Source of the DNA: Lachnospiraceae bacterium NK4A179
Lineage (GTDB): Bacteria; Bacillota; Clostridia; Lachnospirales; Lachnospiraceae
Assembly: GCA_000421045.1 (NCBI GenBank)
Contig: ATWC01000002.1
Coordinates: forward strand, 62,001-126,000
DNA: 64,000 bases
Direction of reading: 5' to 3'
Shown piece after piece: positions 34,639-64,000 of this stretch; position 1 is the first letter of the stretch; the number at the start of each line of letters is the position of its first letter. The notes under the pieces are model-generated. The model searched no databases, was not told the origin of the DNA, and saw only the letters and a list, made by a program, of their open reading frames with translations. A program made the translations under genes and the position numbers.

Positions 34639-35688
34639 CTAAACTTCCTCACCCGACATATATTCATTCACATCCCTGATACAGGCCTCCATTGCTCGCT
34701 CGAGAGCCTCCTTTGGATCACAATTCATTTCGCATCCTGCGGCATTATCGTGTCCTCCGCCACCGAGCATCCTGCATATCCTCGCCGCATTTACCGGAAG
34801 TCTCGCAGTTACTGATACGCGGCAGAATGACGGTTTTAGCTCACGTACTATCACATGGACCGGTACACCCTTCCCGTCCGGTCTGCATATCTGATCTATC
34901 GCATCATTGAATCCTTCCAGATCACAGTCTTCAATGCCGCATTCCCTGTAATCATCATATGTCACATAAGTTCCCAGCACCCTTTCATCTTCCGAAAAAC
35001 GCATTCGGCTGTAAGCTGCAGTTTCCATCTTTATCTGAGCCGGGCGCTTCCTCATGAAGTGCTTTCTTGCTATATCAACTATATGCGCCTCATTTATCTC
35101 TGACACTGCTGCCGCAGTGATAAGACTTTGTCGTCTCGTGCTTCTTGTCCGGAAACATGATGTATCCGTTATAAGGCCTGTATATATAAGATCTGCTTCA
35201 AGGACGCTCATCTTAATATCTATCAAGCCAAAGAGTTTAAAGATGATCTCGGCACATGATGATTCTTCCGGCTCTACAAGGCGCAGCGCTGCAGGAAGAT
35301 GTTCGGGATTATCTATAAAATTCGTAATATGATGATCAATACAGATATCTATCTTTTCATCCGAATATCTCCCAAGACGCGATGCCGAACCTGTATCCAC
35401 AGCGATATTCACAACATGACTCTTCTTCCCGTGAGGCACTGAAAGGATCTCTTCTGCAGGTTTTGTCAGCTCATGAAAGCGCTGCGGTACCGGATCTGAA
35501 CAGAGAGCTTCTGCATCCGCTCCAAGACTGTATAAGCAAAGAGCAAGGGCATAGGCTGATCCTATTGCATCTCCGTCAGGTCTCTTATGAAAAAAAATAC
35601 GGAAGGCTGTATCGGGCTTTCCGCATTCTTTTTTCAGAGCTTCTGCCATTTCATCGGGGGAAAGCATTTTTTCATTTATCGGATCCAT
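34639..35688 (-). CDS. DHH/DHHA1 phosphoesterase, NrnA-like
   Basis: 349 residues. Metal motifs are KRPDGDAIGSA, NIAVDTGSAS and ICIDHHITN; the DHHA1 domain ends with LGGGGHDNAAGC. This is the oligoribonuclease/pAp-phosphatase type that clears nanoRNA and can act on linear di-nucleotides such as pApA. It overlaps the TVP38 gene by 17 bases. A larger DHH protein of a different subtype is encoded at 57940-59457. Confidence 0.9.
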   Translation of the reverse strand: MDPINEKMLSPDEMAEALKKECGKPDTAFRIFFHKRPDGDAIGSAYALALCLYSLGADAEALCSDPVPQRFHELTKPAEEILSVPHGKKSHVVNIAVDTGSASRLGRYSDEKIDICIDHHITNFIDNPEHLPAALRLVEPEESSCAEIIFKLFGLIDIKMSVLEADLIYTGLITDTSCFRTRSTRRQSLITAAAVSEINEAHIVDIARKHFMRKRPAQIKMETAAYSRMRFSEDERVLGTYVTYDDYRECGIEDCDLEGFNDAIDQICRPDGKGVPVHVIVRELKPSFCRVSVTARLPVNAARICRMLGGGGHDNAAGCEMNCDPKEALERAMEACIRDVNEYMSGEEV

Positions 35689-51277: not shown

Positions 51278-52282
51278 TCAGCATCCTATCCTCAGCATTG
51301 CCGCTTTACCATGCAACGTGATCGTTTCCGATTCAGCAGGAATGAATATGCAGTCGCCTCTGAAAAACGGAAACGTAACCGAAGGAGTACTGATCATTCC
51401 GCAGCCATCAGTCACAAGCAGCACTTCAAAAGTAGTAGGACCTGCATTAACTGATGCCATTTCCTTAATACGTTCTGTATTGAGCAGCATACGCTCAACC
51501 GTGAAATATCTGCATCGTCCGAGAAGCTCGGTTGCAAATCCTCTGTGGAACTTAAGACTCCTCATAGGCTGACGCGGAGCCTGCTTTCCCTTCATATCAA
51601 GCACATCCATGGCCTTGTCTATGTGCAGTTCTCTCGGCTTTCCATTCTTATCTGTCCTGCCATAATCATATAGCCTGTATGTAAGATTTGAGCTCTCCTG
51701 TATCTCTGCCACCAGAGCACCGGCTCCTATCGCATGGACCGTACCCGGTTCCACGAAGAACACATCATCGGTGCGGACAGGAACATACTGTAGAAGACTC
51801 TCAAGAGTATTAGATCCTATCGCCTTTTTCAATCGGTTCTCATCCACATCATGGCTGAAACCGTAAACAAGCTTTGTATCTTTGTGGCTGTCTATCACAT
51901 ACCACATCTCTGCCTTGCCTCTGGAACCGTTCTCATGGGCAGCTGCATATTCATCATCTGGATGAACCTGCACGGAAAGATCGGATTTTGCATCGATGAA
52001 CTTTATCATTATGGGAAGATCTCCGGGTGCTTCGGAAAGCCCCGCCGCATGAGTTCCCATATATTCAGGATGTTCAGTAAGAACATCCTTCAATGTCCTT
52101 CCCGCAAACCTGCCACTCGCTACGGTGCTCAGACCGTCCGGATGAGTTGAGCATTCCCATGTCTCTGCAAGAGGATCCATATCAAACTCCTTGCAGAGAT
52201 CATCCTTAAGTCGTCTTCCGCCCCAGATATAATCTTTACCGGCGGGAGAAAGCAAAAAAGGAAAACGGGGTGATTCCGCCAT
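51278..52282 (-). CDS. manA: Mannose-6-phosphate isomerase, class I
   Basis: Zinc enzyme interconverting fructose-6-phosphate and mannose-6-phosphate. 334 residues with YIWGGRRL, the metal-site segments IDAKSDLSVQVHPDDEYA and FVEPGTVHAIGAGALVAEIQESS. The ATG follows GGAGGTATAG; an in-frame TTG lies one codon earlier. Within this operon it can feed mannose-6-phosphate both to a NeuB-like synthase and to mannose activation. Confidence 0.94.
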   Translation of the reverse strand: MAESPRFPFLLSPAGKDYIWGGRRLKDDLCKEFDMDPLAETWECSTHPDGLSTVASGRFAGRTLKDVLTEHPEYMGTHAAGLSEAPGDLPIMIKFIDAKSDLSVQVHPDDEYAAAHENGSRGKAEMWYVIDSHKDTKLVYGFSHDVDENRLKKAIGSNTLESLLQYVPVRTDDVFFVEPGTVHAIGAGALVAEIQESSNLTYRLYDYGRTDKNGKPRELHIDKAMDVLDMKGKQAPRQPMRSLKFHRGFATELLGRCRYFTVERMLLNTERIKEMASVNAGPTTFEVLLVTDGCGMISTPSVTFPFFRGDCIFIPAESETITLHGKAAMLRIGC

Positions 52283-52285
52283 CAA

Positions 52286-53599
52286 CTATACCTCCAGCTC
52301 AAACTTTTTCTTATCATGAACCGAGATAAGTTTTCCTATCTGAACTTCTATCATTTCCAGATCAGTCTCTGCGATGACCGTATGTCTGCAGCCTGCTGCC
52401 ATAGTAACCACATCACCGGGTTTAACCTTCTGTTCCATTCCGTCGATTATCACGGATCCCTTTCCGGAGATGATATTCCAGATCTCATCACGGTGTTCGT
52501 GGCTGTGATAATTCATCCTGTGGCCTTCATTGAGCGTAACCTTTACGGTCATGCTGTCATCCTCAACATCTATTACCTGATAACGCCCCCAGGACTTCTC
52601 GGCAAACATTATCTGCTGGTCTATCTTATCAACGATAGGCTTGATATATGAGCTCTTCTCTTTTTCCGATACGAGGAATCCATCTGATGAAGCCGCAACC
52701 ACAACATTCTTAAGTCCCATGCATACGATCGGAACATCAAGTTCATTCACCACATGCACATCTTCACAGCTCTCAAGCACTGCTCTTCCGATAACCGGCT
52801 CGCTCATTGCCTCTGTAAGTGTATTCCATGTGCCAAGATCCTTCCAAGTGCCGCCGAAGCGGAGCACTTCTATACTGCTCTCCTTTTCAGCAACAGCATA
52901 GTCAAAGCTTATCTTTTCAAGAGTTTCATATTTTTTGAAAAGATCTTCATAATCCGTAAAGTCGATCAGCTCATGCGCACGTTTAAGTACGTATCCCACC
53001 TTATATGCAAATACGCCTCCGTTCCAGAGAGCGCCATTCTTTATGTATTCCTCTGCGGTCTTGATATCAGGCTTCTCCTTGAATGTTTCAACCTTGGATA
53101 TCTCCTCCTTATCCTGAGGTATGACATAGCCATACTTTTCAGAAGGATATGTAGGTTCTATTCCCATGAGCACAAGATTGGCTTTTCCTTCTGCGGCTCT
53201 GTTTCCGAGTGTCTCAAGGGCCTTGAAATAATCAGGCTCAACATAAGGATCTACAGGACATACTACTGCAGATTCATCTTCACCTACACCTCTCACATCA
53301 TGAAGATATGCTGTGGCAAGCGCAATGGCAGGAAATGTATCTCTTCTGCAAGGTTCCACCGAAATGCCCACTTCATTTCCAAGCTGATTATGAATAGCTG
53401 AAACCTGTGTCTTGCTGGTAGCTATGGTAACATTCGCATCCTTGTCTACTGTCGTGATGCCACGGTACATACGCTGTACCATCGATTCATAGCTTCCGTC
53501 TTCCTTCCTGAATATCTTTATAAACTGCTTTGACCTCACATCATTTGAAAGAGGCCAGAGACGTTTTCCGCTACCTCCCGATAAAAGGATAATGTTCAT
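52286..53599 (-). CDS. manC: Mannose-1-phosphate guanylyltransferase with cupin domain
   Basis: 437 residues. The nucleotidyltransferase domain opens with ILLSGGSGKRLWPLS and contains PVDPYVEPDYF. The C-terminal cupin (about 345-430, NYHSHEHRDEIWNI) is the type-II phosphomannose isomerase domain. The combination makes GDP-mannose. The gene overlaps the HAD phosphatase gene by four bases and abuts manA, so isomerase activity may be duplicated in the operon. No phosphomannomutase is in the window. Confidence 0.92.
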   Translation of the reverse strand: MNIILLSGGSGKRLWPLSNDVRSKQFIKIFRKEDGSYESMVQRMYRGITTVDKDANVTIATSKTQVSAIHNQLGNEVGISVEPCRRDTFPAIALATAYLHDVRGVGEDESAVVCPVDPYVEPDYFKALETLGNRAAEGKANLVLMGIEPTYPSEKYGYVIPQDKEEISKVETFKEKPDIKTAEEYIKNGALWNGGVFAYKVGYVLKRAHELIDFTDYEDLFKKYETLEKISFDYAVAEKESSIEVLRFGGTWKDLGTWNTLTEAMSEPVIGRAVLESCEDVHVVNELDVPIVCMGLKNVVVAASSDGFLVSEKEKSSYIKPIVDKIDQQIMFAEKSWGRYQVIDVEDDSMTVKVTLNEGHRMNYHSHEHRDEIWNIISGKGSVIIDGMEQKVKPGDVVTMAAGCRHTVIAETDLEMIEVQIGKLISVHDKKKFELEV

Positions 53600-54075
53600 T
53601 TGTTTTCTTCCTCCTTACTGAGTTCCCTGTATAAATCCCTGACTGCTCCATATCCACCCTTGCAGGAAGATATCCAGTCAGCCTTGCTTTTCACTTCAGG
53701 CTCTGCATCTGCGGGACATGCCTTGAAACCTACCGCCATAAATGCCGGAATGTCATTTATGTCATTTCCCATAAAAACAGCACGGGAAGCATCAATCCCG
53801 TGCTCCACGCAGTAATTCTTTACAGTTACGCCCTTGTCTTTAACCCCGTGAACAACCGGTATGCCAAGCTTTTCGGCACGTCGCTCCACAACCGGGTTCA
53901 CTTCTGTCGATATTATGACCTGTGTGATACCGGCAGCCTTAAGCGCAGCCACTCCAAGTCCGTCAGATCTGTTCACATATACATATTCCATTCCGTTCTG
54001 ATCTACAAGCACGCGGTTGTCCGTCATAACGCCGTCAAAATCATAGAATATGCAGCTTATGTCCTTTATGTTCAC
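53596..54075 (-). CDS. KdsC-type HAD phosphatase
   Basis: 159 residues with HAD motif I FYDFDGVMTDNR, motif II IISTE, Lys in the KDKGVTVKNY segment, and motif IV FMGNDINDIPA. This is the capless C0 type that dephosphorylates KDO-8-P, and in Bacteroides KDN-9-P. A Firmicute does not need KDO, so with the adjacent NeuB-like gene a nonulosonate-9-phosphate is the better guess. The start is GTG with a GGGGGG box and overlaps neuB by four bases. Confidence 0.88.
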   Translation of the reverse strand: MNIKDISCIFYDFDGVMTDNRVLVDQNGMEYVYVNRSDGLGVAALKAAGITQVIISTEVNPVVERRAEKLGIPVVHGVKDKGVTVKNYCVEHGIDASRAVFMGNDINDIPAFMAVGFKACPADAEPEVKSKADWISSCKGGYGAVRDLYRELSKEEENK

Positions 54076-54956
54076 TTATCCCCCCTGAGTTCATGTCTCT
54101 TCTTGAGTTCGGAAGCAAAAAGTACTTTTTCACCGTTACCGAGAGATTCAAGTGAATCCCGTATCCTCTTCTTTAAAAGAGTCATTGCCTGAAGTTCGAG
54201 ACTCGCCTTCTGATCGGATCCCCACATGTTATGATCAAGCGTAACATGACGCTCGATAACACAGGCCCCGAGCACAGCAGCGATCACGGACGGTTCAAGA
54301 TTTGTTTCATGTCCGCTGTAACCAACAAGACAGTTGTATCTCTTCTTCATCGTCTCTATAAGACGGAGATTCAGTTCATTGTTAGGTGAAGGATATGATG
54401 AATTAGTATGACATATGATATAGTCGCCCTCGGAATAATCCTCAAGCCAGCTTACTGTCTTATCCATCTCGTCCAGTTCAGACATGCCTTCCGATATGAT
54501 GACCGGTCTTCCCGATTCACAGGCTCTTCTGATCATCTCCTCATTGGTATTCATCGCAGATGGTATCTTTATGAATGGCACATCATACTGAAGAAGGAAT
54601 TCAAGTGAGGGAATGTCCCATGGACTCGCTGTCCAGTCAAGAGGCTTCTGTCTGCAGTAGATGTCTATCTGATCATATTCGGGCTTTTCGAACTCGATAC
54701 GCTTTTTATAGTCTATGTAAGCCATGGTTCCCCATGGCGTCTCACGCATTACCTGCTTCTGTGCCTCAGGAACTGCTATATCGGGCGTACGCTTCTGAAA
54801 CTTGGCGCAATTCCATTCACTTGCAAATGCTGCATCTAACAGACGCTTGGCGATCCCCAGATCACCATTATGATTGATCCCTATCTCGGCGATAAGATAC
54901 GGTTCGGAATTCTCCGATACGGTAAAATTGCCGAGTTTTATGGTTTTATTAGCCAA
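54072..54956 (-). CDS. NeuB-family nonulosonate synthase lacking the SAF domain
   Basis: 294 residues; sialic acid synthases are usually about 340 with a C-terminal antifreeze-like domain, which is absent. The barrel is intact: AEIGINHNGDLGIAKRL, CAKFQKR, FIKIPSAMNTNEE, VGYSGHE, IERHVTLDHNMWGSDQ. The reaction would be condensation of phosphoenolpyruvate with a mannose- or ManNAc-type sugar. The start is TTG, supported by GGAGG eight bases upstream and a nearby promoter. First gene of the operon. Confidence 0.88.
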   Translation of the reverse strand: MANKTIKLGNFTVSENSEPYLIAEIGINHNGDLGIAKRLLDAAFASEWNCAKFQKRTPDIAVPEAQKQVMRETPWGTMAYIDYKKRIEFEKPEYDQIDIYCRQKPLDWTASPWDIPSLEFLLQYDVPFIKIPSAMNTNEEMIRRACESGRPVIISEGMSELDEMDKTVSWLEDYSEGDYIICHTNSSYPSPNNELNLRLIETMKKRYNCLVGYSGHETNLEPSVIAAVLGACVIERHVTLDHNMWGSDQKASLELQAMTLLKKRIRDSLESLGNGEKVLFASELKKRHELRGDK

Positions 54957-55032: not shown

Positions 55033-57924
55033 TTAATCAATACCGTACTGAGCCTTCATCTCATCGCTCATCACAGCATCTCCGAGATACTCCTTAGCCT
55101 GTTCCTGCAGTTCCGCAAAACTCTTGATCGTAAAATATCCGAATGCCGGATATCTGTCATCATTTGCCTTGCATATAAGCTTGTTGCCTTCTTCATAATA
55201 TCCCAGCACGCCATATGTCCATGCCAGCATCTTATTATCATCATTTGAAATAATGAATGTATAGTTGTCGGCATTGATGAACATATATTTATCATAATGC
55301 ACAAAACCGAACTCTTTACCAACGGATTGCATTTGAAGATCAAGATCTGTTGTATCTATGACTTCACCGCCTTTTGTATATCTGACATAAGTACCGTCAT
55401 CATAAAGCAGGAGTATCTCATTATTGAATATATCCGCAGCAAGCACATTTCTGCCCTCATCAGGTATCACATACTTATCATTGCCGTCATCATCAAGTAT
55501 AGCCGTACCACCTTCCCTTATCTTAAGAGTAACGCTTCCGTCATTTGCGCTTACAGTTCTTCCGTCGCTCTCATAATCCGACGTTTGATATTTATCAACC
55601 GAGCTTATAAACTCCACATTCCCTGTCTCCAGATCAACACTGTAAGTCTTCTTCGTCAGGTTGTCGCCTTCAGCAGTATCATTCTCATTCGTAAAATACA
55701 CCAGTTTACCGTCATCGGAAACTTCCGTTATATTAACGGAAGTATAATATTTTCCATCAACCTTGGCGTTCCACATATGTTCTTCCTGATCAAGGTTGTA
55801 TGCACGAAGAGTCATATCATCATCAAAAGTTACCAGGACATTACCTGCAACTATGCTGTCATAAACATGTGCATCCTTTGGAGCCTCATTTTCGGGTTCA
55901 AAAGTCAGATCATGAAAATCCGAACTGTATACCGTGACTGCTGTCACATCATTATACTGAATGACAAAAGATAAGAACCCTGCCTTGTTAGTGTAGATCG
56001 CCGATCTTTCCACATCATCCTTAAAATACGGTTTTGATATCATCGAGTTATCCGAAATACTGGCAGCAAAGGAATAATATGCGCCATTCCTGAGCACAGG
56101 CCTTAAATATTTGCCTGAACCATAGATATCAATAAACGATGCCGGCAGGCTTACAGTCCTCATCAGTTCACCTGTCTTTATATTGATGATGCCGCAGCGA
56201 TCCGAGAAAAGCGTTACGATCGCAGGTTCCCTGACCCCCTCGGACACTTCCACATCATACTGGAAAACCCTTGAAGCAAAGCCTGTTGCGGAATAAGGCA
56301 CATCGCAGGTCCATAACTGTCTTCCATCCAGATCAAAGTAACCTACGGTCCTGGCGCTTTCACGGCCGTAGCTTACATCACCATAATCAAAACTCGAACT
56401 AAAAATATCAGGCTCGGTAAGGATCGCCACATGTCCGTCGGAAGTGAAACTTGCTGCCATCTGGCATCCCGTCATTCCATTTATCTGTTTCCAGCTGTCT
56501 TTTCCCACATCATATATTGCATATTTATAATCGTTTAATCCGCCTGTGGGATCCGTGTATGACATAAGAATGTGCTTTCCGTCTCTGGAAACAGTCAGTT
56601 TACTAACGGTATATCCCAATCCCAATGAGTCCGATCCCCAGAAATCGATATCCTTAAATTCGACCTTGCGTATCACCTTTCCATCAGCAGCATCGGCAAG
56701 CATCATCCAATCATAAGAGTATGCCATGATCACCGGAGCCTCTGCGGACAGACTCAGCTCTAATTTGTCATAATCACTCAGTTCTTCTTCGAATGTTATC
56801 TCCCATTTCTTTTCAAAATCACCAAAACTGTAACAGGCGATGCTCTCATGCGATGCAAGTGCGAGATCGTTATCTTCCGTCAGTAAGATATCGTTTATGC
56901 CTGTCGCATCAGAACCCTTAAAAGTCTGCAGCACACCATGAGAATTCATATCCCATACTGTCGCTTCTCCGCTTTTATCAAGTCCCGTAAAATAATCTCC
57001 GCCTGCATCAACGAAGAATTTTTCCATTTTTGATCCGGTATCATATTTCCATACGGCAGTAAGATCCATAACTCCCGGCGCAATATAAGCACCCAGCGCA
57101 TCAGTCATTGCATAATAGCCTGCCGAGGTGAGCGGCCTGTTCTCACTCTCCGTAGGCATGGCTGCCAATGCAAGCTGCAATGCACCTGCCCTGTCACCAT
57201 CTTTTAAGAGAGTTCCCGATGCATAAGAAAGATATTTCGATTGGTTAACAAGCGCCTGATCATAATTCGCTTTTATCTGTGACCTGCTCCATAAGAGATA
57301 TACTATTGCAGCTGTAAGAAAAACACCTATAACTGAAGCCAACGCCGCAAAGTGTCTGATCTTGTACTGTCTGCGTCTCATCATCAGTTCATCATAAGTG
57401 CAATGAAGCATTGAGCATACAAGACGCGGAAGTTCTTCCTTGCGTGCCTTTCTTATAGGCATACGATAATCACAGGAAAGAGGCTCTGCCAATTCCTCAA
57501 AAGTTGCATATGTTCCGTCAGAAAGCTGGCGGGTAACCGTCTGATGAAGCAGTATATCGGGAATAACATCCCCGGGTTCCCCGTCTACAAGTACAGTAAA
57601 GACCTCCTCTTTTGAATGATACTTTAGAAAGGTCTCTATTTCCCTCTGCACCCACAGAGATTCATGCGTACGTTCCGAACATATCACTATGAGAAAGTCG
57701 GAAACCTTCAGCGCATTTTCGATATCATGCTTCAGATCGCTGGTAGTAGGCAGTTCCTCCTTGTCGCGGAATATCCTGTCAAAACGCTTGATACCGGTCT
57801 TCTTTTGGATCTGCTTAGGGATCTTAAATCGCTCAAGCTGCGTCTGAATTTCCGAAGCGATCTTGTTATCGATTTCAGAATGTCTGTATGAAATAAATGC
57901 ATTATATTTTTCGGCCAGTGCCAT
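55033..57924 (-). CDS. TIR domain - transmembrane - beta-propeller protein
   Basis: 963 residues. Residues 5-140 are a TIR domain (NAFISYRHSEID, BB region FRDKEELPTTSDL, and SLWVQREIETFL, whose E95 is the position of the catalytic Glu in TIR NAD hydrolases). A basic stretch and one helix (191-212) predict TIR inside and the rest outside. The remaining 750 residues form WD40/quinoprotein-like repeats with many Asp/Gly turns. It is the last gene of a GH9-MCP-DHH-TIR unit, 15 bases after the DHH gene with a GGAGG box. It is likely a signalling or defence receptor; function unknown. Confidence 0.85.
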   Translation of the reverse strand: MALAEKYNAFISYRHSEIDNKIASEIQTQLERFKIPKQIQKKTGIKRFDRIFRDKEELPTTSDLKHDIENALKVSDFLIVICSERTHESLWVQREIETFLKYHSKEEVFTVLVDGEPGDVIPDILLHQTVTRQLSDGTYATFEELAEPLSCDYRMPIRKARKEELPRLVCSMLHCTYDELMMRRRQYKIRHFAALASVIGVFLTAAIVYLLWSRSQIKANYDQALVNQSKYLSYASGTLLKDGDRAGALQLALAAMPTESENRPLTSAGYYAMTDALGAYIAPGVMDLTAVWKYDTGSKMEKFFVDAGGDYFTGLDKSGEATVWDMNSHGVLQTFKGSDATGINDILLTEDNDLALASHESIACYSFGDFEKKWEITFEEELSDYDKLELSLSAEAPVIMAYSYDWMMLADAADGKVIRKVEFKDIDFWGSDSLGLGYTVSKLTVSRDGKHILMSYTDPTGGLNDYKYAIYDVGKDSWKQINGMTGCQMAASFTSDGHVAILTEPDIFSSSFDYGDVSYGRESARTVGYFDLDGRQLWTCDVPYSATGFASRVFQYDVEVSEGVREPAIVTLFSDRCGIINIKTGELMRTVSLPASFIDIYGSGKYLRPVLRNGAYYSFAASISDNSMISKPYFKDDVERSAIYTNKAGFLSFVIQYNDVTAVTVYSSDFHDLTFEPENEAPKDAHVYDSIVAGNVLVTFDDDMTLRAYNLDQEEHMWNAKVDGKYYTSVNITEVSDDGKLVYFTNENDTAEGDNLTKKTYSVDLETGNVEFISSVDKYQTSDYESDGRTVSANDGSVTLKIREGGTAILDDDGNDKYVIPDEGRNVLAADIFNNEILLLYDDGTYVRYTKGGEVIDTTDLDLQMQSVGKEFGFVHYDKYMFINADNYTFIISNDDNKMLAWTYGVLGYYEEGNKLICKANDDRYPAFGYFTIKSFAELQEQAKEYLGDAVMSDEMKAQYGID

Positions 57925-57939
57925 TTTGAACCTCCAACA

Positions 57940-59457
57940 TTATATTTCTTCGTAGCTTTCCTTAAAAATCTCTTTGTTTATTATGTAGGCGTCCTCGGGA
58001 TCATTAGCCTTGCATGCAAGATAATCCCCGACTTCTCCTTTAAAATACTCGTCCCTGTTCCACTTCGTGAAAACCTTTGCCGGCCTGTTAAGCGCTCTCG
58101 CCCTTATTATATTTCCGCCGTTGGAAATACATATACGTGCATGCGGTGCAAGCGGAACGGTCTCACCCGTGATGGAATTCTTGACCGTCGGAAAATACTC
58201 AAGTTCCATATCATAAAGTTCATCCGTGGCCTGATAGTTTCTTTCAAACACTTCACGCTTAGAAGCATAGACTTCACCGCGCATTCCTATCATTACAACG
58301 TTGTCATCACTGACTTTAAGGTTTGTATCTCCTTCAAGAGTTCTGACAAGCACCGGTGTTCCTTCGGGAAGAAACTCCGAAAGACAGGCATACCCTTGTC
58401 TTACAGGCAGTTTCCTGTAACGCTTCATGGTCTTTGCCTCATCCTCACTTAAACCATTCCTGATGATATCAGTCTCTGTAAAGTAAACATGAAGCTTCTC
58501 CCTTAATATGCTTGTTACGATATATCGTCTTGTCTTATCATCTGCATCTGCATAATTATCATATTGTTGGATAAGCAGTTCCTTCTGCAAAAAACCTCCG
58601 GCCTTATCACCATGACCGCCGCCGGAACCTATTTCACGTGACATATAATCGGCAAGCTCATTTGCATTTACCTCAGGCACACAGCTCCTTACCGAGAACT
58701 TGACACCTGCATCAAGCACTGAGAATACCAGACAGACATCCACCGTATCTACAGAAAGAAAAAGATCACTTATAAGTCCCAGGATATTCGGATCACAGGG
58801 TTCGCTCTCCAGCAATGCATATCGGTGCATCTCATGATACTCAACACCCAGCATGGCAATGCCTGCGATCTTGGCTTCATCAAGAGAAAGATTCATATTG
58901 CAGAGACGCTTTATCAGCGCTTTATCCGGATTGATCGAATCGAGCATATCCCTGTCAAGCGGATGATTGATCTCATTCAATTCATTTGTGTCAGTAAAAA
59001 GACCGTAGTAAAGTGCAGTCTGAAGATCAGGGCTGATCTCAAACTCTTCATTCCTGAGCATATCCCATACGATCGTGGAACAGCTGCCCATTCCCTGTCT
59101 TACATCAGATAACTCAGGAAGTTCCTTTGATATCATATGATGATCGATCACGGCTATATTCTTTGCCGGAAACTGTTTAACATTTCCCTCACCATAGAAG
59201 CAATCGCTCGTAATAAGCAGCTCCGGTTCATGATCAAGTTCTGTCACAAATTCTATCGGTATATTCAAAGTAAGAATGAAAAAAGTAAGATTTGATTTAG
59301 ACACCTTAAAACGCCCGGAATAGATAAATCTAACTTCCTTTCCGTGCGCTTTAAGATATTCGTATATTCCAAATCCGGATGCGAGTGCATCCGCATCCGG
59401 ATTGTCGTGGCACTGCACGACAATATCATCGTATTTTAGAAAATCTGAAAGTCTCAT
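57940..59457 (-). CDS. DHH phosphoesterase with extra C-terminal domains
   Basis: 505 residues. The DHH motifs QCHDNPDADALASG, LLITSDC and VIDHHMISKE and the DHHA1 motif SGGGHGDKAGGF occupy the first 330 or so. The last 170 residues add two related beta-rich units, the second containing GEVGDYLACKAN and ending IFKESYEEI, a pattern I know from small phage and bacterial proteins. Family members cleave linear or cyclic oligonucleotides. It lies between the MCP (44 bases, no terminator) and the TIR gene. Confidence 0.86.
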   Translation of the reverse strand: MRLSDFLKYDDIVVQCHDNPDADALASGFGIYEYLKAHGKEVRFIYSGRFKVSKSNLTFFILTLNIPIEFVTELDHEPELLITSDCFYGEGNVKQFPAKNIAVIDHHMISKELPELSDVRQGMGSCSTIVWDMLRNEEFEISPDLQTALYYGLFTDTNELNEINHPLDRDMLDSINPDKALIKRLCNMNLSLDEAKIAGIAMLGVEYHEMHRYALLESEPCDPNILGLISDLFLSVDTVDVCLVFSVLDAGVKFSVRSCVPEVNANELADYMSREIGSGGGHGDKAGGFLQKELLIQQYDNYADADDKTRRYIVTSILREKLHVYFTETDIIRNGLSEDEAKTMKRYRKLPVRQGYACLSEFLPEGTPVLVRTLEGDTNLKVSDDNVVMIGMRGEVYASKREVFERNYQATDELYDMELEYFPTVKNSITGETVPLAPHARICISNGGNIIRARALNRPAKVFTKWNRDEYFKGEVGDYLACKANDPEDAYIINKEIFKESYEEI

Positions 59458-59501
59458 CTTCCTCCCCCCATTTTTGGAATGATCATACGATCAGACAGTA
59501 C

Positions 59502-61223
59502 TCAGCACTTAAAGAACGCAAGGAGTTCAGTAAGTTCATCGGATATACCGGAAAGCCTGACCGAAAGACTCTTTATATCATCAACCGTAGCATTCACCTG
59601 TTCCATGGATGCCATTGTTTCCTCACTTGATGCAGCATTCTCTTCGGATATCGCAGAAAGAGAAGCCATTGTATCATTGACTGCACGGCACTTATTGTCT
59701 ATATCCTCACAGGAAACCTTTGCCATATCAAAGATATTTCTCACTTCAGATATAAGATCGATCACCTTAGTAATGGTTTCTTTGGTCTGATGGCTCACAT
59801 TCTGCTGTGCAGCAACTGTCTCATCAAGTTCCCTGACAGTATTTACCGCTGATGCGGAGCGCTCCGAAAGCTGTGTCATTATTTCAGATATCTCTGTTGC
59901 CGACTCACCTGACTGGATCGCAAGATGTCCTATCTCTTCCGCAACTACCGCGAAGCCCCTGCCTGCTTCTCCGGCTCTTGCTGCCTCAATGGAGGCATTA
60001 AGCGAAAGCAGATTTGTCTGTGTAGCTATGCTGTCTATCGTATCAACAGCTGTCTGTACGGTTTTTACAAAGTCATCAACCTTGCGCATGGACTGGGCCA
60101 CTTCATCAAGCGATTCCTTTGTCCTGGTCATTGCTTCTTCAAGGTCTTCAAAATCACGCTGCATTTCTTCAGATGAACCGTTCATCTGCATCATCCTGTT
60201 ATCAGCATTATTAATATTCGACGTCAGCTCATCAACACCGCTAAGTATATCGGAGATCGAAGTCACGCCTTCCTGTACTGACTGCGCCTGTGATGTTGCA
60301 CCCTGCGCCACTTCACCGACAGCACGACTGACATCAGATGTATTATTTTCTGTATCATCGGCAGCCTTCTTCAGATCCTCGGCCGCAGAATTAACTTCTT
60401 CTGCCTTTCCGCTTATATTAGTAATGGTTTCGGAAAGACGCTTTCTTAAGGACTCCGTATTGCGGGCAAGTTCACCAAGTTCATCACCGTGGTTAAGTGC
60501 TTTACCGTCTATATAAAACTTAAGCTGGCCGTCAGCCATACTGTTATTTGCGCCGTTTACGCTTTCAATGATCTTCACCAGTTTTCTTGAGAATGCCAGT
60601 ATAACGACACCTGAAAGGAGGAAAAATACGACCGCGATCACCACATTGGCGATCACAATGCCCATTACATCCTCATTAAATTCTGCTCTTGGTATGCCGG
60701 CAAAGAACATACCTTCTATCATGCCGGAATAATCTCTTACAGGAATGTACGAAACAAAGTAGGGAACGCCGTTCACATCCATCTTGGATGAAGAGAACTT
60801 CTCTCCCTTTGTGATAACTGTTTCGATCACGGCAGGATCAGCCTGAACATTTACAAGTCTCTCACCATTAGCATTCATAACACTTGTGATCCTGCAATAA
60901 TCATCCACGAAGATTGCCAAATCTATATCTGTCTTAGCCTTGTACTCGTCGAATGAATTCGTCATGTTATCAGTGATGTTGGAACTGTTCATGTATACTC
61001 TGCTCTTTCCTTCATCATACCTTATGCTTTCCACACCGAATTCATTCTTTGAATTCTGCTCATACATCATCTGAATGGCAGAATCCAGTTTTGCAATATA
61101 CTGCTCTGTAAGATTGTTGTACTGCGAAATGACCGACGCCACTGTCATCAGAGTGCATGCAAGTAACAGAGGGATCATTGCTATCATTGTGATCTCAGTT
61201 CGAAAACTTATCTTTTTCTTCAT
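59502..61223 (-). CDS. Methyl-accepting chemotaxis protein
   Basis: 573 residues: transmembrane helix about 8-30, a single-Cache-type sensor to about 180, a second helix about 185-210, HAMP, then the signalling coiled coil with the invariant hairpin tip [20 protein letters not shown]. No CheR-binding pentapeptide is present at the C-terminus. It should pass a small-molecule signal to CheA. The start after AAAGGAG lies five bases from the GH9 stop, so it is co-transcribed with a cellulase. Confidence 0.94.
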
Positions 61224-61227
61224 AAAA

Positions 61228-63612
61228 TCAGTCTCCTTTGCCATTTTGTATTTCTGATGCCAGATCATAGATTAACGGTGAATTCCAATATATGGTTACT
61301 TCATTTGTTGAATAACTCTGAACGTTATCCGCATAACTCATTGCAGGAGATGCGTCCGACAGAACACTCTTTCCGTATGAATCTGAGGGGTTCGAATTTG
61401 GACCACCTATAAGCATTCCCGGCATTGCCTTCCCGGCAACAGTAGACATCCTGTGATGGGGATGCTCCGGCGTGAATGTTCCAAAACCTGTCACAAAACA
61501 ATATCCCAGCGAATTGCATCCAAGTATATAATCGATCTGTTTCTTTGCCACCTCTGCATATGACATATCACCGGTAAGGCGTGAGGCCATATAGAAAAGC
61601 ATTCCATTATTAGCGACCAGCATATTACTGCCCCATGCATAATTATTTCTGAAGGGCATGTAATACATATCTGTCTTCATCTCGCCTATCTTATAATCAG
61701 CTTCCTTCATGACCTGCTTCATCGCTTCATCAGCGATCACGCAGCCTTCTGTCTTTGCCAGATCATAAAATGCATATAAGCCAACTTCGCTCCAGCCAAA
61801 GCCCCTCATTACAGCGTAACTATCCATTGAAGCCAGAAGCTCGTCCTCCAGATCATTCCTTCCCGAAAGATAGAGTTCAGCCTCTGCCCAGTACTTTTCA
61901 TCACCCTTGCTGGCATCCGGGTATTCACCTGTTTCCATCCCGGCAGGATTCTTGAACGACCTGTCTGCACCTTCCGTAAAAAGATATGTATATGCAAGCT
62001 CTGCAGAATCATAAGCTTCCTTTGAAAACTCCGGATCGATATCAGCAAAGACCCTTGAAGCTTTTGCCATCACTGCTGCAAAGTCTGCAGTTGCCGTATA
62101 AGACTTTTCCGAAACTATAAGCGGCTCCTTCTCTTCATCCGGCATGATGTCATTACAGAAGACCATGGGAGTAACTTTATGATATACACCACCATCGGCT
62201 TTATCCTGCATCTTTAACATCCAATCTAATTCCCACCTGGCTTCATCAAGGATATCAGGCACACCGTTGCCGCTCTCGGGAATCCCCAGATCATCATCCG
62301 TCACACGAAGATCTTCATATGTTTCAAGAAGATCCGCAACCGTCTTAGCTCCGGAAACAACATATTTCCCGTAATCGCCTGCATCATGCCAGCCGCCGCT
62401 CACATCAAACTTTTCTCCGGTGCCGAAAACTTCAGCCTCATCCATATGGCAGGCATCATGTGCATATACCCCTGCTATGTCAGGATCGATCGTCGTGCCG
62501 CAACGCTGTTTATAAAGCATCAGCACAACTTCTTTATAAAGATCATCATAGACATCATCTGCGATCTTAAACGGATAGCTTGCACCTGCATCAGTATATA
62601 TATAGTATTCACCGGGCTTTGTAAGACCGGAAAAATCACCGTGGGCAACATCTTCTCCGGAACCGGTATCTCCATTATGCGGTTCAAGAGTCCCCTGCCA
62701 TACAATCTTTCCCGTACTGCAGTCAACTACATAGAAATCTGCACCGTCATCAGAGGTCTTTACAAACACGGTCTTACTGTCATCTGTTCCGTAACCGACC
62801 TGATTGATATTCACCGTATTGTACTGCGGCAGAGCCTGTATGACCTGAGCGTTCGACGAATCCTTAACTTCAAGCTTTATATTATCGATATAGATCTTGT
62901 GAGGACCGGGATCTTCCTTCATATCCTCCATCTTCCCCATGTTGAATACAAGTCTCGGGGCCGGATCCGAAGTTTCATCCATCGTGAAATCAACCGAGAA
63001 ATGCTCTACATCAGGACCCACATCTATATAATCACCCTGATATGCATGATAATCACCACCATTTATCTGAAGCCTGTATTCAACCTTTCGTTTAATATCC
63101 GAAGATATATCAAAACTGTATGTATACTCACAGCCTTCACTTAAGAAGAAACCGTCCCAGTATATCTGGTTGGCATAATCCTTGCCACCGCAGGCAGCGA
63201 TCTCGCAAACTATCTGCCCGCCGTCTTCTTTAAGGCTGAAACTGCCGCCATTTAAGTATTTACTGAAGTCATCCTTTTCGTTTGTGCCGTCATCAAAATT
63301 GAGATCAACGACCACATCACCGTCATTTACTGAAGCAAAGGCAGCTTCTCCTCCCGCCGCACTGTAATTAAGTTCTGTCGTGGCCGCGGGCTTCTCAGCA
63401 TCCGATCCAACCTTTTCCCCTGTAACCCCGCTTTCAGGTGCAGCTTCTTCTGTAGCCTGTACCTCTGTAGCCTCAGGTGCTGCCTCTGTCACCTTATCCG
63501 TTGTCTCAGGAGCCGCTGCTTTTGGCACATTGCCCGTACAACCTGCTGCAGGAATCAGCAGAACAGTCGAAAATGCCACCGAAAGAAGTCCCTTTATCCC
63601 GTTATTTTTCAT
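61228..63612 (-). CDS. GH9 cellulase lipoprotein with CBM and Ig-like domains
   Basis: 794 residues. The signal peptide ends at lipobox IPAAGC and an Ala/Glu/Thr-rich linker follows. Residues about 100-250 are a CBM4/9-like jelly roll ([26 protein letters not shown]). About 265-350 is the CelD-type Ig-like domain ([14 protein letters not shown]). The GH9 barrel has [13 protein letters not shown] (nucleophile/base Asp) and the acid Glu in [12 protein letters not shown]. It cuts beta-1,4-glucan at the cell surface. GGGAG fixes the start. First gene of its operon. Confidence 0.94.
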
Positions 63613-63645
63613 AATTTCTCCCGAATAAAAATACATACTTATATA

Positions 63646-63680
63646 AAGTAAATTTTACTTCAAGAATATGCTTAAAACAA
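63646..63680 (-). promoter_or_regulatory. GH9 operon promoter with operator-like palindrome
   Basis: TTGTTT (63675-63680), 17 bases, TAAAAT (63652-63657). Seven-base arms AAGTAAA/TTTACTT around a single base (63646-63660) cover the -10 box, a likely repressor site. Confidence 0.5.
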
Positions 63681-63751
63681 GGGAAGCAGCCCCTTTTATT
63701 GTATAGTCTCATGTGCCAAAAAGAAGACATAACAGCCCGGTGTTTATATGT

Positions 63752-63757
63752 TATAAT
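63752..63757 (+). promoter_or_regulatory. -10 box for the secreted protein gene
   Basis: A consensus TATAAT about 40 bases before the start codon; the -35 (ATAACA, 17 bases upstream) is weak. Confidence 0.45.
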
Positions 63758-63793
63758 TTTTTTGACTGCTGTTTTTTACGGGGAATAAACGCT

Positions 63794-64000
63794 ATGAGAA
63801 AAAGAGTATTCACTAAGATCATAAGCCTTATCATGCTGTCGGTCGTTCTTGCGGGGGCAATTCCCGCTCATACCGAAGCTGCCGGCAGATCAGGTTATTC
63901 ATATAACAATTACATGCAGGTCTTCGATCCGGATTATTATGCGATACTCTATCCGGAGGTAGGGATCGCCTGCAACTTCAACAGAGATCTGCTCTTAAAA
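63794..64000 (+). CDS. Secreted protein, 3' end outside window
   Basis: 69 codons are visible and the frame is still open at the end. A typical Sec signal peptide (MRKRVFTKIISLIML onwards, cleavage probably after AHTEA) is followed by YMQVFDPDYYAILYPEVG. The F-D-x-x-Y-Y-x-x-x-Y-P-x-V pattern is a short repeat seen in Firmicutes cell-surface proteins, often with CAP, glycosidase or peptidase domains. The main domain lies beyond the window. A GGGG box precedes the ATG and the gene diverges from the GH9 operon. Confidence 0.8.
   Translation, partial: MRKRVFTKIISLIMLSVVLAGAIPAHTEAAGRSGYSYNNYMQVFDPDYYAILYPEVGIACNFNRDLLLK

Follow-up and report, generated by a model that had tools for sequence, protein, structure and literature searches.

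A membrane TIR receptor often encoded beside a long DHH phosphoesterase, and a C-terminal domain that accompanies their linkage

TIR domains are known to produce signals derived from NAD, mostly in immunity, and their products are isomers of cyclic ADP-ribose (cADPR), which contain a pyrophosphate. The DHH enzymes described so far cleave phosphodiester or pyrophosphate bonds, and we know of no DHH enzyme that cuts the pyrophosphate of cADPR isomers. In Thoeris, which consists of the TIR protein ThsB and its partner ThsA, a TIR gene stands beside a second gene whose product possibly reads or acts on what the TIR protein makes. The locus described here shares that arrangement, but here the TIR protein sits in the membrane as a receptor, and its partner is a DHH protein with a C-terminal domain (CTD); SIR2, SLOG and Macro, the parts of the ThsA effector, were found by Pfam in none of the eight proteins of the window that were scanned. 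On the enzyme side, GdpP, NrnA, TmPDE (TM1595) and DhhP have the fold and motif of this DHH protein, which differs from them in an extra CTD of about 200 residues and in having no membrane or GGDEF part of the GdpP type. A literature search, covering titles and abstract openings of papers largely outside subscription, returned no paper about a pair of a TIR receptor and a long DHH protein. A membrane TIR receptor often found beside a phosphodiesterase makes a clear candidate for a signal with a built-in enzyme partner.

The locus, its neighbors and the two proteins

We analyzed a window of 64,000 nucleotides (ATWC01000002.1, positions 62,001 to 126,000 of the forward strand), and all coordinates are positions in this window (Table 1). 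Four minus-strand open reading frames follow one another in the order GH9 cellulase, chemoreceptor (MCP), DHH, TIR, with gaps of 4, 44 and 15 bases, just as an earlier note on this DNA had described, and Pfam bore out the cellulase, chemoreceptor, DHH and TIR domains that the note had named. A site scan listed no terminator-like site in the three gaps, in agreement with the note, and no minus-strand promoter-like site in 63613-63795, where a single promoter for all four genes had been placed. Promoter-like sites numbered 33, little different from the count in shuffles (mean 25.7, sd 5.2). The same-strand run extends past the TIR gene, across a gap of 76 bases, into genes for NeuB, HAD, ManC and ManA proteins. 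The scan found no terminator-like site in this gap, and a promoter-like site with a TG lies inside it, at 55022-54994. Since the run continues 76 bases on into the sugar genes, position 55033 does not mark a clear end of the gene unit. In NCBIfam, the NeuB, HAD and ManC-like proteins scored below their cut-offs, with ManA as the sole exception; the row perhaps makes KDN, a nonulosonic acid, from mannose 6-phosphate.

Table 1. Features of the locus in window coordinates, with the basis for each
Feature	Position	Strand	Basis
GH9 cellulase gene	61228..63612	-	Glyco_hydro_9 E 3.9e-89 and CelD_N; lipobox-like N-terminus by eye
Cache chemoreceptor (MCP) gene	59502..61223	-	MCPsignal and sCache_3_3 (Pfam)
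Long DHH/DHHA1 phosphoesterase gene, 505 aa	57940..59457	-	Pfam DHH E 9.7e-14, DHHA1 8.2e-6
DHH/DHHA1 catalytic core, residues 1-300	58558..59457	-	Conserved motif residues
CTD, about residues 305-505 (~200 residues)	57943..58545	-	Goes with TIR linkage; alignment A3
Membrane TIR receptor gene, 963 aa	55033..57924	-	TIR_2 and ThsB_TIR (Pfam); AlphaFold model
TIR domain, about residues 1-155	57460..57924	-	Pfam; invariant E95
Membrane helix, residues 189-214	57283..57360	-	Kyte-Doolittle scan
Tandem WD40-like propellers, residues 289-932, predicted extracellular	55129..57060	-	AlphaFold, Foldseek, topology
Consecutive genes: NeuB-type synthase, KdsC/KDN-9-phosphate-phosphatase-like HAD (phosphatase), ManC-like, ManA	51278-54956	-	Pfam/NCBIfam
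Further NrnA-like DHH/DHHA1 protein	34639-35688	-	Same window

The earlier note had read the four genes as one circuit, in which cellulase, chemoreceptor, DHH protein and TIR protein jointly sense cellulose or its products. A single strand, short gaps and gaps free of listed terminator-like sites are what such a circuit would lead one to expect, but we regard it as extremely improbable. With the window's own sequences as phmmer queries, none of 140 related long DHH genes had a GH9 relative within four genes, and 3 had an MCP relative there (a set that was not deduplicated and from which the window is excluded); in a same-genus genome, G004 (L208), neither gene stands beside the DHH-TIR pair; and the run also continues into the sugar genes, whose NeuB, HAD and ManC relatives were near none of the 140 either. 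Cellulose sensing is thus unsupported, and the GH9 cellulase and the chemoreceptor look like local neighbors rather than conserved partners of the DHH and TIR genes.

An AlphaFold model of the receptor (mean pLDDT 83.4) places the TIR domain at about residues 1-155, a helix at 177-241 and an all-beta part at 289-932, which Foldseek matches to tandem WD40 proteins. The sole hydrophobic stretch, residues 189-214, has five K/R in the 15 residues before it and two after. Model, fold matches and the charge bias around a single hydrophobic stretch all support the outer propeller that had been predicted from the sequence. All 36 receptors compared have E95, as do all 20 proteins compared across three kinds of TIR protein. 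The residue aligns with the glutamate of plant TIR and Cat1 sequences, at the place of the catalytic glutamate of TIR NADases; the available part of one study reports that the prokaryotic TIRs examined require that glutamate (PMC7282519). The Pfam family ThsB_TIR matched at 39.4 bits, over its cut-off of 21.2, and TIR_2 scores as well, while the best ThsB match in PADLOC was weak (E 0.033). Among phages, the TIR protein had no match.

Related loci carry receptors of another build. Pfam recognizes TIR-membrane-DUF6273 proteins at L301:1560-2912 and L170:6802-8217, and the TIR proteins of L177, L189 and L294 resemble these by eye only. In L301, L177, L189 and L294, a long DHH gene adjoins a TIR receptor with an outer part different from that in the window. 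For DUF6273, the available part of one source reports models with a C-type lectin fold (PMC10743442). That the outer parts include WD40 propellers as well as DUF6273 points to extracellular sensing.

Alignment of the DHH protein with its homologues (52 in all) showed H17, D23, D85, H106, H107, D156 and G279-G281 to be invariant, and D21 and H282 to be kept in at least 90%. The DHH motif residues and the GGGH of DHHA1 are present and both Pfam families score over their cut-offs, which places the protein in the DHH/DHHA1 superfamily. The nearest PDB folds of its structure model (pLDDT 89.7) are TmPDE, GdpP, NrnA homologues and DhhP (Foldseek; E 1.2e-19 to TmPDE). It is not a GdpP, as the DHH family begins at residue 12 and Pfam gives no GGDEF match. 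Whole-protein NCBIfam scores are far below cut-offs, including 23.3 bits against the 350 set for the NrnA equivalog. DHH-domain genes number five in the host genome; they include one GdpP (L303) and two NrnA-like genes, whose proteins both miss the curated NrnA cut-off. The genome also has one diadenylate cyclase. As GdpP and NrnA-like proteins are already present, the long DHH protein is not the sole enzyme of its sort, and a special role for it is likely.

Linkage of DHH and TIR genes among relatives

Three samples of relatives were compared. With the DHH protein as query, a scan of genome contigs returned 80 loci, 77 of them with a called DHH gene (the contig set). A TIR gene was adjacent in 37 of the 77, two genes off in 2 and absent in 38, some of the stretches being short; for the 69 full-length distinct DHH proteins, the figures were 36, 2 and 31. 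The commonest family within four genes of DHH was TIR, at 39 loci, followed by tRNA synthetase at 11. Sampled evenly, 299 genomes of the family held 48 long DHH genes (the family set), with TIR adjacent to 20, two genes off in 4, farther away in 1 and absent in 23; a narrower first TIR profile had given 18 adjacent and 3 two genes off, where the wider one gave 20 and 4. From 391 genomes of the class came 29 strong CTD matches, and the 23 that were new to the analysis were taken (the class set); TIR was adjacent in 12 of these and absent in 11, with 5 of the 23 places coming from same-family genomes.

Once near copies and short pieces had been removed, 130 distinct long DHH proteins were left in the pooled set, the window's own included. 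A TIR gene lies within two genes of 70 of them and near none of the other 60. This contrasts with NrnA-like DHH controls, 19 in number and drawn from the short DHH matches, whose fetched stretches held TIR in none. Far from never occurring together in relatives, the outcome that would have told against the earlier note, the two genes form a pair that, as this comparison shows, has been retained often and repeatedly within family and class. The pair is not obligate, judging by the 60 long DHH genes with no TIR gene nearby.

Those 60 would suit a reading in which c-di-AMP, pApA or short RNA is the substrate of the DHH protein, with the TIR domain serving only to bind protein and recruit the enzyme to the membrane receptor. 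The nearest folds are indeed enzymes of c-di-AMP/pApA and of short RNA, and the genome has its diadenylate cyclase. We consider this reading unlikely, in that binding alone would not require the invariant TIR glutamate, and the genome already holds GdpP and NrnA-like proteins.

The linked genes occur in several arrangements: among the 70 cases, TIR is downstream in 36, convergent in 14, upstream in 14, divergent in 1 and two genes off in 5. The median gap in 38 same-strand downstream pairs (not deduplicated) is 6, and 18 of the pairs overlap in the ORF calls, which are greedy longest-ORF picks and may overstate overlaps. On a quick tree, which leaves 38 of its 127 inner branches open, the linked label must have changed 33 times or more, starred branches forcing 21 of these changes; the mean in shuffles is 43.3, and a count as low came up in 2 of 500. 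With all eight arrangement labels, 37 changes are needed against a shuffled mean of 61.6, a value as low in 0 of 200. Linkage therefore clusters by kinship, yet it changes often. One contig, L069, is titled Candidatus Gastranaerophilales while its DHH protein groups within Lachnospiraceae in the tree, and it is perhaps mis-binned.

Co-occurrence in whole genomes supports the pairing. Within the 299, where 46 have the TIR protein and 52 the CTD, both occur in 26 against 8.0 expected (Fisher p 2e-11, in a test that ignores kinship and counts linked pairs). Other counts speak against a strict bond. Where the long DHH gene is unlinked, the TIR profile, which misses divergent TIRs, matched anywhere in 6 of 22 genomes (one match weak; 16 had none), close to the 3 of 22 among genomes without a CTD. 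Seen from the other side, TIR proteins of at least 650 aa in the family set (n=48) have a DHH or CTD gene adjacent in 17 cases, two genes off in 3 and neither in 28. In two linked cases, L183 and L191, the TIR protein is of another sort and the linkage may be chance. Long DHH genes without TIR had no other shared partner in 19 loci inspected by eye and ten cluster representatives searched with Pfam; their neighbors, in the loci looked at, are housekeeping genes or reflect clade-wise synteny.

The C-terminal domain and its stand-alone operons

It is the CTD of the DHH protein with which TIR linkage goes, as comparison of proteins that lack one or the other part shows. DHH cores without a CTD had TIR nearby in 0 of 4 cases in the family set, and CTD-less DHH ORFs in 0 of 6 in the contig set, of which three are cut off by the end of a contig and two measure 590-602 aa. 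Conversely, a CTD without a DHH core has TIR within two genes in 7 of 7 cases, all from the family sample. These observations also bear on whether the DHH and TIR genes might share a neighborhood without sharing a function. About half of the long DHH genes are unlinked and some neighbors are kept through plain synteny within clades, as simple hitchhiking would predict, but we judge it very unlikely given the several arrangements, the 21 or more forced changes, the controls without TIR and the core-less CTDs that keep it. We conclude that the two genes are very probably paired in function.

Operons with a CTD protein of its own, at L170, L186 and L222-L226, combine a soluble TIR protein, a receiver-like class III cyclase and the stand-alone CTD protein. 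Pfam confirmed TIR and cyclase at L170 and L225 and gave no match for the CTD protein; at L223, cyclase and CTD read in one ORF. A GAF-GGDEF protein sits beside the operon, recognized by Pfam at L225 and by eye at others. Such TIR-cyclase-CTD operons possibly serve nucleotide signaling.

No Pfam family matched the window's CTD over cut-off, and a CTD profile found no match among PDB sequences at E 10. The Pfam family PGDYG matches 7 of 20 CTD members (best E 0.0016), and PHROG 419, 4502, 1810 and 36774, phage families of unknown function, match 18, 18, 17 and 16 of the 20 (best E 1.7e-9), with the window's own CTD matching these Pfam and PHROG families at E 0.0055 or worse. We take the likeness as a lead and not as membership. 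An internal duplication, suspected by eye, was set aside when hhalign gave 49% over 15 columns. No relative of the CTD was found in viral_contigs. Two records labeled 'Bacteriophage sp.', L301 and L302 (MT836910 and MT836060), do match, yet they carry bacterial chromosome genes and look mislabeled, so they were not accepted as evidence of the CTD in phages; L301 is treated as bacterial sequence because its genes look bacterial. Among plasmids, 8 records match the DHH protein, none with 80% coverage. The CTD offers a handle for finding further systems of this kind.

A proposed mechanism and described systems

We tentatively propose that the two proteins form a receptor-phosphodiesterase module, with the CTD as the link between the enzyme and either the TIR domain or its product. 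An extracellular ligand would bind the tandem propellers and TIR domains would cluster inside the cell; the clustered domains would cleave NAD+ to an ADP-ribose-type nucleotide. The CTD would recognize either the TIR domain or the TIR product and so couple the DHH core, which would hydrolyze a small nucleotide, in the simplest case the TIR product or a breakdown product of it, and the signal would end. A messenger made by the TIR protein and removed by the DHH protein would agree with the catalytic residues, which are kept in both. Against the proposal we count the lack of known precedent for a cADPR-cutting DHH enzyme, together with the unlinked 60 of 130. In a bolder version, which strikes us as doubtful, the CTD would serve two separate systems as the receptor domain for an NAD-derived nucleotide made by TIR, and the DHH-CTD protein would be a bacterial enzyme that destroys this nucleotide, making for reversible surface sensing rather than a cell-killing alarm.

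The same components could be ordered as in Thoeris, with the TIR receptor making the signal, the CTD sensing it and the DHH core acting as an effector that destroys nucleotide, perhaps against phages. The two-gene make-up of TIR and sensor-effector and the ThsB_TIR match agree with this, and a sensor domain would be expected to stay beside TIR even without its core, as the CTD does. We nevertheless find it improbable: PADLOC has no match for the DHH protein and weak ones for ThsB, the pair's neighbors (in the part of the loci seen by eye or with Pfam) read as housekeeping genes and not as a defense island, and outer propellers better suit an extracellular ligand.

Two further described systems bear on the proposal. 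Pycsar, built of a class III cyclase and an effector, resembles the CTD-alone operons of the relatives, not the window: these hold a class III cyclase, that of L225 matching PADLOC PycC at E 4.7e-22, together with TIR. They differ from Pycsar in the extra CTD protein, and the TIR proteins scanned, those of L170 and L225, show no cyclic-nucleotide-binding domain at E 0.01. RyDEP, a phage enzyme that cuts 2'/3'cADPR, is by the available part of its description a glycosidase with a RyR fold, and its authors state there that no proteins hydrolyzing 2'/3'cADPR were known before (PMC13232231). The DHH protein differs from it in kind and, if it acts as we propose, would resemble it in effect, since it too would end a signal made by a TIR domain.
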